A DNA stretch of 64,000 bases, from NCBI RefSeq assembly GCF_004795895.1, contig NZ_CP039250.1, forward strand, positions 1,550,001 through 1,614,000. The letters run 5' to 3'. Shown piece by piece: positions 2,875 to 61,487 of the stretch (positions within the stretch are counted from its first letter, which is position 1; each line of letters begins with the position of its first letter). This stretch comes from Sphingopyxis sp. PAMC25046. GTDB lineage: Bacteria > Pseudomonadota > Alphaproteobacteria > Sphingomonadales > Sphingomonadaceae. Below the pieces are notes generated by a model. That model did no database searches and was not told the DNA's origin. It worked only from the letters and a program-made list of their open reading frames with translations. The position numbers and the translations under genes were made by a program.

Positions 2875-2947
2875 TCGCGTAGGCGATCGACTCTCCGGTA
2901 CGGGGTGCCCTCCGGCTTTGGGTGGAGCGCGGACACTTGCTTGCTTC

Positions 2948-3022
2948 GTCATCCCGGACGTGATCCGGGATCCATTTTTCCAGAGGTTGGGTGAATGGAC
3001 CCCGGATCACGTCCGGGGTGAC
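2948..3022. repeat. REPIN-like inverted pair, family 1
   Basis: Two inverted arms beginning GTCATCCCGGACGTGATCCG and its complement, separated by a short spacer, so the whole unit can fold into one long hairpin. Related units lie at 29577-29641, 32038-32127 and 47331-47419, a single arm at 56714-56740, and two arms around the GIY-YIG gene at 61053-61445. It is intergenic and contains no gene. Confidence 0.85.
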
Positions 3023-3124
3023 GATAAGGGATAAGTCAGCTTCCGGCCAGAACGGTCGGTCCGTTGGGGGCAAGGGGAGCAGGGTTTCCTATGGACAAGT
3101 TTCGGCAAACGCGGTGAAGGTAGT

Positions 3125-29576: not shown

Positions 29577-29641
29577 GTCACCCCCGACTGGAGTCCATGA
29601 CGTCAGCGCCGCAATGGATCCCGGATCAAGTCCGGGATGAC
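29577..29641. repeat. Degenerate REPIN-like unit, family 1
   Basis: The right arm is intact (complement begins GTCATCCCGGACTTGATCCG); the left arm, starting GTCACCCCCGACTGGAGTCC at 29577, has diverged. It lies between the DUF6456 gene and the convergent nitronate monooxygenase gene. Confidence 0.7.
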
Positions 29642-29712
29642 GAAGGAGAGGAAGCGAACGTCCGCTCACCAGCCCAAAACAGCCGTTGCCGGCTGGCCGG
29701 GCTATTTCGGTC

Positions 29713-31988: not shown

Positions 31989-32037
31989 CGGATGGCGGTT
32001 TTGGGGCGGAGAGCTGTCGTTGCTCTCCTCCACTTCC

Positions 32038-32127
32038 GTCATCCCGGGCTTGACCCGGGATCCCGCTTTTTGGGGCGTCGACCGGTCTTCGGCATCAAGC
32101 GGGACCCCGGATCAAGTCCGGGGTGAC
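32038..32127. repeat. REPIN-like inverted pair, family 1
   Basis: Two inverted arms (GTCATCCCGGGCTTGACCCG on the left; complement of the GTCACCCCGGACTTGATCCG type on the right) around a spacer of about 30 nt. It is nearly identical to the unit at 47331-47419, including the GGGATCCCGCTTTTT and TCAAGCGGGACCCC shoulders. Confidence 0.88.
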
Positions 32128-47257: not shown

Positions 47258-47330
47258 GGCGGCTCTAGTGATGCAAAATGTCGCCGGATGCAAGGGGGGA
47301 ATGCGAAAATTGCGTGGCTGCCACGCTTTC

Positions 47331-47419
47331 GTCATCCCGGGCTTGACCCGGGATCCCGCTTTTTTCTGCTCGCACCGGCTTCGACGTCAAGCGGGACCCC
47401 GGATCAAGTCCGGGGTGAC
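47331..47419. repeat. REPIN-like inverted pair, family 1
   Basis: Inverted arms GTCATCCCGGGCTTGACCCG (left) and the complement of the GTCACCCCGGACTTGATCCG type (right), nearly identical to 32038-32127. It lies between the leuA leader region and the rhodanese gene. Confidence 0.88.
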
Positions 47420-55648: not shown

Positions 55649-57285
<1,637 letters not shown>

Positions 57286-60964: not shown

Positions 60965-61052
60965 GGGTGGCCGGATTGCGGGCGCTTCCGGTCGTTCTTG
61001 CCAATCCGGACCCTATGACCGGTTTCGGGCGATAGCGGACGTTGCACTTCTC

Positions 61053-61083
61053 GTCACCCCGGGCTTGACCCGGGGCCTGCCTT
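61053..61083 (+). repeat. Left inverted REP arm flanking the GIY-YIG gene
   Basis: A 31-bp arm (starts GTCACCCCGGGCTTGACCCG) whose inverted partner is 61415-61445, with 3 mismatches by my count. It matches the family 1 arms at 32038 and 47331. Confidence 0.85.
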
Positions 61084-61099
61084 GTCTTTTTCTGGCGCT

Positions 61100-61444
61100 A
61101 TGGAACGTTATCCCTGCGTCTATATTCTTGCGCGTTCGTCGCATGGGACATTCTACACCGGGGTCACCTCGAACCTTGTCCAGCGGATCCATCAACATCG
61201 TGAAGGGACATTCGGCGGCTACACGAAGGACTATGGAATCAAGCGCCTCGTCTGGTTCGAACGCCACGAGATGATGGATACGGCAATCCTTCGAGAGAAA
61301 CGCATCAAGCGGTGGCTGCGTACATGGAAATACGAACTGATCAACGCGATGAACCCGACATGGCGCAATCTCGCCGAGGATTTCGGGTTCGAACCTTTGC
61401 CCTTGGCAAGAAGGAAGGCGGGTCCCGGGTCAAGCCCGGGATGA
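61100..61444 (+). CDS. GIY-YIG nuclease-family protein within a REP-flanked unit
   Basis: A 114-residue single-domain GIY-YIG protein. The motif pair is YIL (8-10) and YTG (19-21) in VYILARSSHGTFYTGVTSNLVQRIHQHR, with Arg29 and Glu66 (ILREKRIKRWLR) as the expected catalytic residues, followed by the NPTWRNLAEDFG stretch. The last codons (AGPGSSPG) and the stop are encoded by the right REP arm. The ATG at 61100 is used; a TTG frame is open 18 nt earlier, inside the left arm. It may nick or cut DNA, but the target is unknown. Confidence 0.88.
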   Translation: MERYPCVYILARSSHGTFYTGVTSNLVQRIHQHREGTFGGYTKDYGIKRLVWFERHEMMDTAILREKRIKRWLRTWKYELINAMNPTWRNLAEDFGFEPLPLARRKAGPGSSPG

Positions 61445-61445
61445 C
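61415..61445 (-). repeat. Right inverted REP arm flanking the GIY-YIG gene
   Basis: The inverted partner of 61053-61083, 31 bp. It contains the stop codon (61442-61444) of the GIY-YIG gene. Confidence 0.85.
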
Positions 61446-61487
61446 GAAAGCGACGTCCGCTCTCCACCCCAAAGCAGATTATCTGCC

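Follow-up and report, generated by a model that had tools for sequence, protein, structure and literature searches.

Enzymes of the RAYT type (TnpA-REP) are mostly inherited vertically, and each is matched to its own REP. RAYTs cleave REPs in single-stranded form, with the GTAG tag being crucial in E. coli and the requirement more tolerant elsewhere (available part of PMC8266576). Two REP superfamilies have been described in bacteria, and REPs tagged with CGTC or TGTC make up one of them. In the available part of their paper, Di Nocera et al. (2013, PMC3733652) define the CGTC REPs by a stem of 8-9 bp, a loop of 4-5 nt and a 3-bp tail, most fitting CCA; report that a dedicated transposase is lacking and that no CGTC units flank RAYT genes; and suggest that CGTC REPtrons may have disappeared, leaving the mover open. 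No paper linking GIY-YIG genes with REPs was seen among those listed in searches of an open-access library; bioRxiv and most subscription journals lay outside the scope of these searches, and an earlier description is therefore possible. At the locus analysed here, a small GIY-YIG nuclease gene lies exactly between two CGTC-tagged REPs, and many related genes in other bacteria are enclosed likewise by matching hairpins of their own. The nuclease is accordingly a strong candidate for the mover that a large family of bacterial REPs has lacked.

A nuclease gene between REP arms, and its short relatives

The window is the whole 64,000-nt stretch that was analysed, comprising bases 1550001-1614000 of the 4.50-Mb single-contig genome of Sphingopyxis sp. 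PAMC25046. Its relevant features are as follows.

61052..61446, + strand: gene-bearing unit of 395 nt, bounded by a CGTC tag (left) and a GACG tag (right)
61052..61084, + strand: left arm, a CGTC-tagged REP (61051-61083 by the inverted-repeat call), with the tag at 61052-61055, a 7-bp stem and a CTTGA loop
61414..61446, - strand: right arm, a CGTC-tagged REP in inverted orientation (61415-61447 by the inverted-repeat call), defined by inverted repeat and tag pattern
61100..61444, + strand: GIY-YIG nuclease gene (PF01541) of 114 aa, ATG at 61100, TGA at 61442-61444
61031..61045, + strand: left part of an outer inverted pair, 15 nt, outside the tags, 87% complementary to the right part
61450..61464, - strand: right part of the outer inverted pair, 15 nt, outside the tags
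2946..3024, no strand: gene-free REPIN of a related type, CCCGGACGTGATCCGGG in both arms
29619..29642, - strand: CGTC REP with a CCCGGACTTGATCCGGG core, no second arm by the tagged-core pattern
32037..32127, no strand: gene-free REPIN of a sister type, one CCCGGGCTTGACCCGGG arm and one CCCGGACTTGATCCGGG arm, one core in common exactly; end from the initial annotation
47330..47419, no strand: gene-free REPIN of a sister type, one CCCGGGCTTGACCCGGG arm and one CCCGGACTTGATCCGGG arm, one core in common exactly; end from the initial annotation
56719..56735, + strand: REP core CCCGGACGTGATCCGGG, no second arm by the core pattern

The initial annotation had described a complete GIY-YIG open reading frame nested between inverted REP arms, and an inverted-repeat search confirmed this layout, with two arms of 33 nt that are inverted, 91% complementary and 331 nt apart; the limits of the element, given as 61053-61445, had to be moved to the tags at 61052-61446. 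The annotation was also right that the right arm supplies the end of the gene: this arm contains the final seven codons (GPGSSPG), and its GACG tag shares bases with the TGA stop. Both arms begin with CGTC, unpaired at the foot of the hairpin, followed by a predicted 7-bp stem and 5-nt loop, with CCT/CCC rather than CCA after the stem; the outermost stem pair is absent from the window arms and present in sister REP types. As single-stranded DNA, the left arm has a predicted folding energy of -9.7 kcal/mol (z -2.8) and the right arm -8.8 kcal/mol (z -3.2). Chance is a poor source of such sequences, with 10 occurrences of CCCGGGCTTGACCCGGG at up to three mismatches in the window against 0.6 expected, and six of a 24-mer comprising the arm core plus tag against 0.00 expected.

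The encoded protein has the domain, fold and conserved residues of the GIY-YIG superfamily. A 120-aa version, beginning at an alternative TTG start at 61082, scores 51 bits against PF01541 (cut-off 22.6), and Y19, G21, R29, H33, E66 and N85, which we take to be the catalytic residues, are invariant over 17 aligned rows. The structure model has a pLDDT of 88, and its best fold matches are weak (UPF0213 BH0048, Slx1 and the UvrC N-domain, none at E<=0.001). NCBIfam and PHROG contained no match for the window protein, and the one NCBIfam match among four other family members fell far below the cut-off. Labels in the source records of close relatives read 'GIY-YIG nuclease family protein', 'endonuclease' or 'putative endonuclease', and the closest organism-named protein matches are mostly Sphingopyxis.

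The same genome contains a second copy of the gene at 484 kb, 1.13 Mb from the window unit, with 98% protein identity and an identical arm type. Two substitutions and one indel separate the units (395 and 394 nt), which have 17 nt left of the tag in common and lie beside different genes. Four PF01541 matches were found in this genome, comprising three small non-UvrC genes and a 698-codon open frame that is presumably uvrC; this name, like tadA, serB, gst and sirtuin below, is one we assume from protein sequence rather than annotation. There was no match in this genome to Y1_Tnp, the RAYT domain (PF01797), and RAYT matches occur in only 11 of 60 genus genomes, which fits the suggestion of the initial annotation that a GIY-YIG enzyme takes the place of a RAYT. 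At the eight RAYT loci examined, of 12 matches, there was no inverted tagged-hairpin pair, and at most one tagged hairpin each; RAYT was rejected as the mover on these grounds.

Two REP families were counted in this genome. The core of family A, TTGACCCGGG, has 50 copies in the genome against two for its reversed control, and forms 18 neighbouring inverted pairs: 12 are short REPINs no more than 130 nt apart, two, the window unit and the 484-kb unit, are 358-359 nt apart, and four exceed 1 kb. Family B (CGAGCGAAGTCGAG) has 59 cores, with none for its reversed control. It forms 23 close pairs and a single stretched one of 498 nt, with the third small GIY-YIG gene inside. Only three inverted neighbouring pairs defined by exact cores lie 131-1000 nt apart, two of family A and one of family B, and these hold the three non-UvrC GIY-YIG genes.

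The three gene-free hairpins of the window, taken by the initial annotation to have the same two arms as the gene unit, are REPIN-like family members, but of sister or related types (CCCGGGCTTGACCCGGG/CCCGGACTTGATCCGGG and CCCGGACGTGATCCGGG). Elsewhere in the genome, short family-A REPINs have asymmetric arms identical in kind to those of the gene unit, and some have exactly its two arms (L007, L009, L012, L016, L018). Overall, the initial annotation's reading of an autonomous element with short non-autonomous relatives is supported, with mobility an inference, as it had said. Inside the arms, REPINs share with the gene unit 15 (left) and 9 (right) of 20 bases at L007, 15 and 13 at L011, and 12 and 17 at L015, with 5 and 6 at the sister-type L020. 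This inner similarity would fit REPINs being internal-deletion derivatives of the unit, and would equally fit a gene inserted between REPIN halves.

Several short REPINs in the genome also have about 25 nt beyond each tag in common, which would mean either that the mobile unit can reach beyond its tags or that REPINs insert into an outer repeat of one kind. REPINs of different types, and unrelated repeats such as CCCTCCCCT..AGGGGAGGG, also have similar outer surroundings, close to TTTGGGGTGGAGAGCGGACGTT ... AACGTCCGCTTCCGGTCGAAA; this context is seen at 61031-61045 / 61450-61464 in the window and at L280, L283, L286, L290, L301, L303, L306 and L311. It is possible that this context represents a docking or target palindrome.

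Repeats around GIY-YIG genes in the genus and beyond

The genus census consisted of the matches listed by a protein search of 60 genus genomes, with weaker matches outside it. The family was present in at least 52 of these genomes, with eight lacking a family match among the matches listed, and 140 of the 153 gene matches were usable once 13 with short flanks, a low score or a missing N-terminus had been left out. Upstream and downstream flanks were compared for inverted repeats with a local score of at least 16, which became the main test because an earlier tagged-hairpin detector missed several REP types.

GIY-YIG genes are associated with flanking inverted repeats throughout this census, at 128 of the 140 genes among the matches listed (130 with direct repeats counted). 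In the controls, the threshold was reached by 4 of 1481 far-flank comparisons and by 2 of 56 ORFs of the window, a set limited to lengths of 250 aa or more and including some spurious frames. Inverted pairs flanked none of 30 tadA genes and one of 30 gst genes in the same genomes (sampled from the 59 and 36 genomes carrying them, respectively), neither control being a small intergenic gene family. Upstream flanks matched the downstream flanks of other GIY-YIG loci at threshold in 293 of 1500 comparisons, as would be expected of loci with a REP type in common. By their outer flanks, the 140 genes among the matches listed represent 41 sites, 38 with repeats, and many subfamilies occupy one conserved site in several species, such that most copies look inherited. 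A narrower test for a CGTC/TGTC hairpin was positive in either flank of 94 of these 140 genes and in both flanks of 75 (control 16/700); some other subfamilies have hairpins with other tags.

The association is also specific to the subfamily. The protein tree contains many subfamilies, each with its own hairpin and similar spacing, examples being ACCCCCGCGAAGGCGGGGGT, ATGCTGAACTTGTTTCAGCAT, ATCCCAGCGAAAGCTGGGAT, TTCCCGCGAAAGCGGGAA and the window's CCCGGGCTTGACCCGGG, with GCTGAACTTGTTTCAGC being the REP type of another. Among protein pairs from different sites in different genomes, a REP was in common in 286 of 325 that were more than 70% identical, and in 250 of 4566 that were less than 50% identical. 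Within one genome, the corresponding figures were 3 of 3 and 8 of 121, leading us to reject one dominant REP type per genome as the cause of the match. On these comparisons, it is the protein subfamily, not the genome, that REP sequence follows. The match is close rather than strictly one to one, since clades 1 and 4 are distant in the tree and yet have an identical REP core. The initial annotation had named, as one refuting outcome, arms in other genomes that are unrelated to the genome-wide REP family. The arms found there are REPs, and their type goes with the protein subfamily; this check did not refute its proposal.

The annotation had also asked whether REPIN number tracks with gene presence, which proved partly true only. 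For each of the 60 genus genomes, exact cores of types A and D were counted, with the gene's own arms subtracted and reversed controls giving 0; genomes were treated as independent, and none of the tests is corrected for relatedness. Type-D cores had a median of 10 in genomes with the matching gene (n=8) against 1 in those without (n=52; p=0.0018, uncorrected for relatedness), and type-A cores a median of 16 with a clade-1 gene (n=8) against 2 without (n=52; p=0.0006, likewise uncorrected). However, type-A cores did not differ significantly with the clade-4 gene across the 60 genomes (p=0.12), and in the cross controls type D was flat in clade-1 genomes (p=0.75), while type A was raised in genomes with the type-D gene (p=0.03). 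There were also exceptions: G005 (L085, L095-L098) has 97 type-A cores, with neither of its two listed family matches in clade 1 or 4; G048 (81% complete) has 27 type-D cores and three weak family matches outside the fetched loci; and other genomes without a detected matching gene have 10-23 cores. Gene loss after REP expansion is possible in G005. Strict tracking of REP number with the gene was therefore rejected.

Beyond the genus, most of the relatives tested are nested in repeats, more weakly than within it. A scan of named records gave at least 578 confirmed places, of which the best 80 were taken and 77 were usable (three with short flanks were left out); their titles include sphingomonads, other alpha-, beta-, gamma- and delta-proteobacteria, Nitrospirae, Planctomycetota, Omnitrophus and others. 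Among these best 80 of at least 578, 46 of the 77 usable loci passed the inverted-repeat test and 31 fell below threshold (control 3/730), with a CGTC/TGTC hairpin in at least one flank of 70 and both flanks of 43 (control 11/385). Outside Sphingomonadales, in the same best-80 set, the inverted-repeat test was passed by 23 of 36 loci, and a tagged hairpin flanked 31 of 36 on one side or both (control 11/180). The family was found in 47 of 200 genomes of a phylum sample at E<=1e-10; at the best-match loci, one of 30 being left out as the genome's own copy, 16 of 29 passed the inverted-repeat test, 13 of 29 fell below threshold, and 19 of 29 had a tagged hairpin (control 5/145). Arms were not seen at the genes of Rhizobium K1/93 and Photobacterium GJ3, among 11 plasmid-collection loci that were read.

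A GIY-YIG gene lies between CGTC arms in records of Novosphingobium aromaticivorans, Azospirillum lipoferum, Sinorhizobium meliloti and Neisseria gonorrhoeae, all named as CGTC carriers, as organisms or groups, in the available part of PMC3733652. The repeats flanking the GIY-YIG match of N. gonorrhoeae (L325), ATTCCCGC..GCGGGAAT, resemble dRS3, a repeat assigned to CGTC-1 by Di Nocera et al. (PMC3733652, available part); this 2.17-Mb record is filed as a plasmid, although its size suggests a chromosome. On plasmid p1 of Planktothrix agardhii (L330), the neighbours of a GIY-YIG homologue are a type IIL restriction-modification gene on one side and the DISARM gene drmA on the other. Two loci of family f9, genus g17 (L372, L374), have GIY-YIG genes in CTAGAATCC-type inverted repeats, with no CGTC/TGTC hairpin detected there; these repeats may represent an additional class of REP within this system.

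Occupied and empty sites, and the explanations they allow

Eight clade-1 units, at eight sites in six genomes, measure 394-396 nt from tag to tag, and their flanks beyond the tags are largely unrelated; a ninth (L027), which is outside this count, also has both arms. The units thus have defined ends and copies at unrelated sites, with the qualification that the genome's own short REPINs share sequence beyond the tags.

The sites are also polymorphic. Empty alleles in relatives, proposed as a check by the initial annotation, were found in gene-less form at three sites (tadA-sirtuin, Sphingobium fnrL and Azospirillum suf), and less cleanly beside gst, such that its second refuting outcome, a gene at the same site in all relatives, did not occur either. 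Firstly, the copy at 484 kb has tadA and a sirtuin gene as its neighbours. This pair is kept in 22 of 29 other loci, with the GIY-YIG gene in none of the 22; a CGTC REP occurs there in five of these relatives, being of other types in four and a single window-type REP in the fifth (L265), which leaves 21 with neither window-type REP nor gene. Secondly, the fnrL-side unit of Sphingobium megaplasmids is present in seven records and absent in four: in TYG64 (L338), the gap between fnrL and the response regulator holds a lone palindrome, CGTCACCCCGGGTCAAGCCCGGGGTGACG, with tags at both ends and no gene; TYG74 has a decayed palindrome; and TYG72 and TYG65 have neither palindrome nor gene. The TYG64 palindrome is either a deletion scar or a pre-insertion target. 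Thirdly, A. lipoferum 4B has the gene and four REPs between sufB and sufC, where neither such a REP nor the gene is present in A. ramasamyi (97.9% identity over the aligned parts), A. oryzae, A. sp. B510 and A. thermophilum. At the window site, none of 29 other gst loci had the gene, or a window-type REP in the 220 nt examined, and six had different REPIN pairs beside gst; serB lay outside the stretch examined in all 29, and no base-resolution empty allele was obtained. A search for target sites found no exactly alignable empty site, and an outer motif common to several REPIN types; no target duplication could be defined at the sites compared. Neither a nucleotide search of a plasmid collection with the 395-nt unit nor a phage search with the GIY-YIG protein gave a match.

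Across 27 pairs of clade-1 genes, dN/dS was estimated at 0.03-0.17, with dS approaching or exceeding 1 in many of them; the ratio was undefined for the genome's own two copies (dS 0). On these values, the GIY-YIG proteins are under purifying selection.

The association of gene and REPs, and its specificity to the subfamily, are well shown. With considerable confidence, we regard it as likely that the GIY-YIG nuclease acts on REPs. We also think it probable that the gene encodes a dedicated REP-associated nuclease of CGTC-tagged REPs, with the role that RAYT (TnpA-REP) has for GTAG-tagged REPs. The 395-nt unit, with its nuclease gene and two inverted REP ends, would then be an autonomous element, and REPINs of about 77-92 nt with the same kind of ends would be non-autonomous relatives moved in trans. 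In the mechanism that we propose, the arms would form hairpins when the DNA is single-stranded or cruciform, the nuclease would recognise the stem-loop of its own subfamily together with the CGTC tag and nick at or near this tag, and the freed unit would be copied or inserted elsewhere by host polymerase and ligase. Hydrolysis of DNA by GIY-YIG enzymes involves no covalent bond between protein and DNA, and therefore joining would need host repair, unlike in HUH chemistry. That the nuclease mobilises REPs is the best single reading, and somewhat more likely than not: against it stand genomes that are rich in REPs but have no cognate gene detected, distant genes that lack arms, and the genome's own REPINs sharing sequence beyond the tags.

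The alternative that survives best, though unlikely, is that a selfish GIY-YIG gene of homing type cuts REPs or REPINs and inserts between the arms, the REPINs being its target and moved by something else. GIY-YIG is a known homing-endonuclease fold, the arms match the genome's own gene-free REPINs, and these outnumber the genes. The gene-less Sphingobium sites, with a lone palindrome of the same type in TYG64 and a decayed one in TYG74, could be read in the same way; and because of the single window-type REP at L265 and the sequence common beyond the tags, this explanation gains and mobilisation by the nuclease is weakened. However, the absence of window-type REP and gene from 21 of 22 tadA-sirtuin relatives, and from the 220 nt read at 29 gst-side loci, means that arms and gene may arrive together; the subfamily-by-subfamily match would require the gene to follow each REP family closely; and no other mover of CGTC REPs is reported in the available part of PMC3733652.

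Slightly less probable, though also a live rival, is a domesticated housekeeping nuclease, resolving replication-stalling REP hairpins for the benefit of the host, with the flanking REPs acting in regulation or as substrate and no mobilisation. Such a function would accord with the strong purifying selection, the conserved sites of several subfamilies across species and the weak fold similarity to Slx1 and UvrC nucleases, and TnpA-REP has itself been termed a domesticated transposase in the literature, in the portion available. It sits poorly with two almost identical copies at unrelated sites, a constant unit length at eight sites, the site polymorphism in Sphingobium and Azospirillum, and the eight of 60 genus genomes without a match among the matches listed. 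That REPs merely gather in intergenic space as terminators, and flank small genes by chance, is very improbable: the left arm is terminator-like in a terminator scan, and a CGTC REP lies just downstream of tadA in 5 of 30 loci and of gst in 8 of 30, but such accumulation is largely refuted by the scarcity of inverted pairs at these same control genes, by REP type tracking protein subfamily even inside one genome, and by the similar spacing within subfamilies.

Comparison with known systems

A nuclease that mobilises REPs would resemble the GIY-YIG homing endonucleases of the I-TevI class in that selfish spread is driven by a GIY-YIG nuclease; it differs in having no intron, no separate DNA-binding domain that could be found, multi-copy palindromic ends and many short gene-free relatives. 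The small GIY-YIG proteins of UPF0213 (1zg2, 1ywl) have the same domain and a similar size. Among them the window protein finds its top PDB match by sequence (E 1.1e-8) and its top match by fold (E 1.3e-3); it differs in lacking an NCBIfam or PHROG model match.

With the CGTC superfamily, as characterised in the available part of PMC3733652, the locus shares the CGTC tag, a short GC-rich stem (predicted at 7 bp here, against 8-9 bp there) with a 4-5-nt loop, inverted dimers, an alpha-proteobacterial bias and REPs inside gene ends; whereas a dedicated transposase is absent in that account, here a GIY-YIG gene lies between such arms. Hence a concrete enzyme family can be named inside the CGTC REPs of many bacteria, with enzyme subfamily and hairpin closely matched. 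Whether CGTC/TGTC REPs in general are transposable elements driven by GIY-YIG nucleases of about 90-115 aa, with each subfamily spreading its own hairpin by nicking and host repair, we regard as evenly balanced. If true, they would be a class of bacterial transposable elements with a GIY-YIG nuclease as the only protein, its chemistry unrelated to that of RAYT and other transposases.

The layout is that of the REPtron (RAYT/TnpA-REP), with a small enzyme gene between palindromic REPs, a tetranucleotide tag at the foot of the hairpin and many short gene-free REPINs (available part of PMC8266576). However, the enzyme is of the GIY-YIG type rather than an HUH/Y1 tyrosine transposase (PF01797), the tag is CGTC/TGTC rather than GTAG, and covalent strand-transfer chemistry is not expected of a GIY-YIG enzyme, in a host genome without a Y1_Tnp match. 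The two RAYT-defining features tested, the HUH enzyme and the GTAG tag, are thus both lacking despite the REPtron layout. If the GIY-YIG enzyme mobilises CGTC REPs, two unrelated classes of enzyme would have reached the same REP lifestyle in bacteria.
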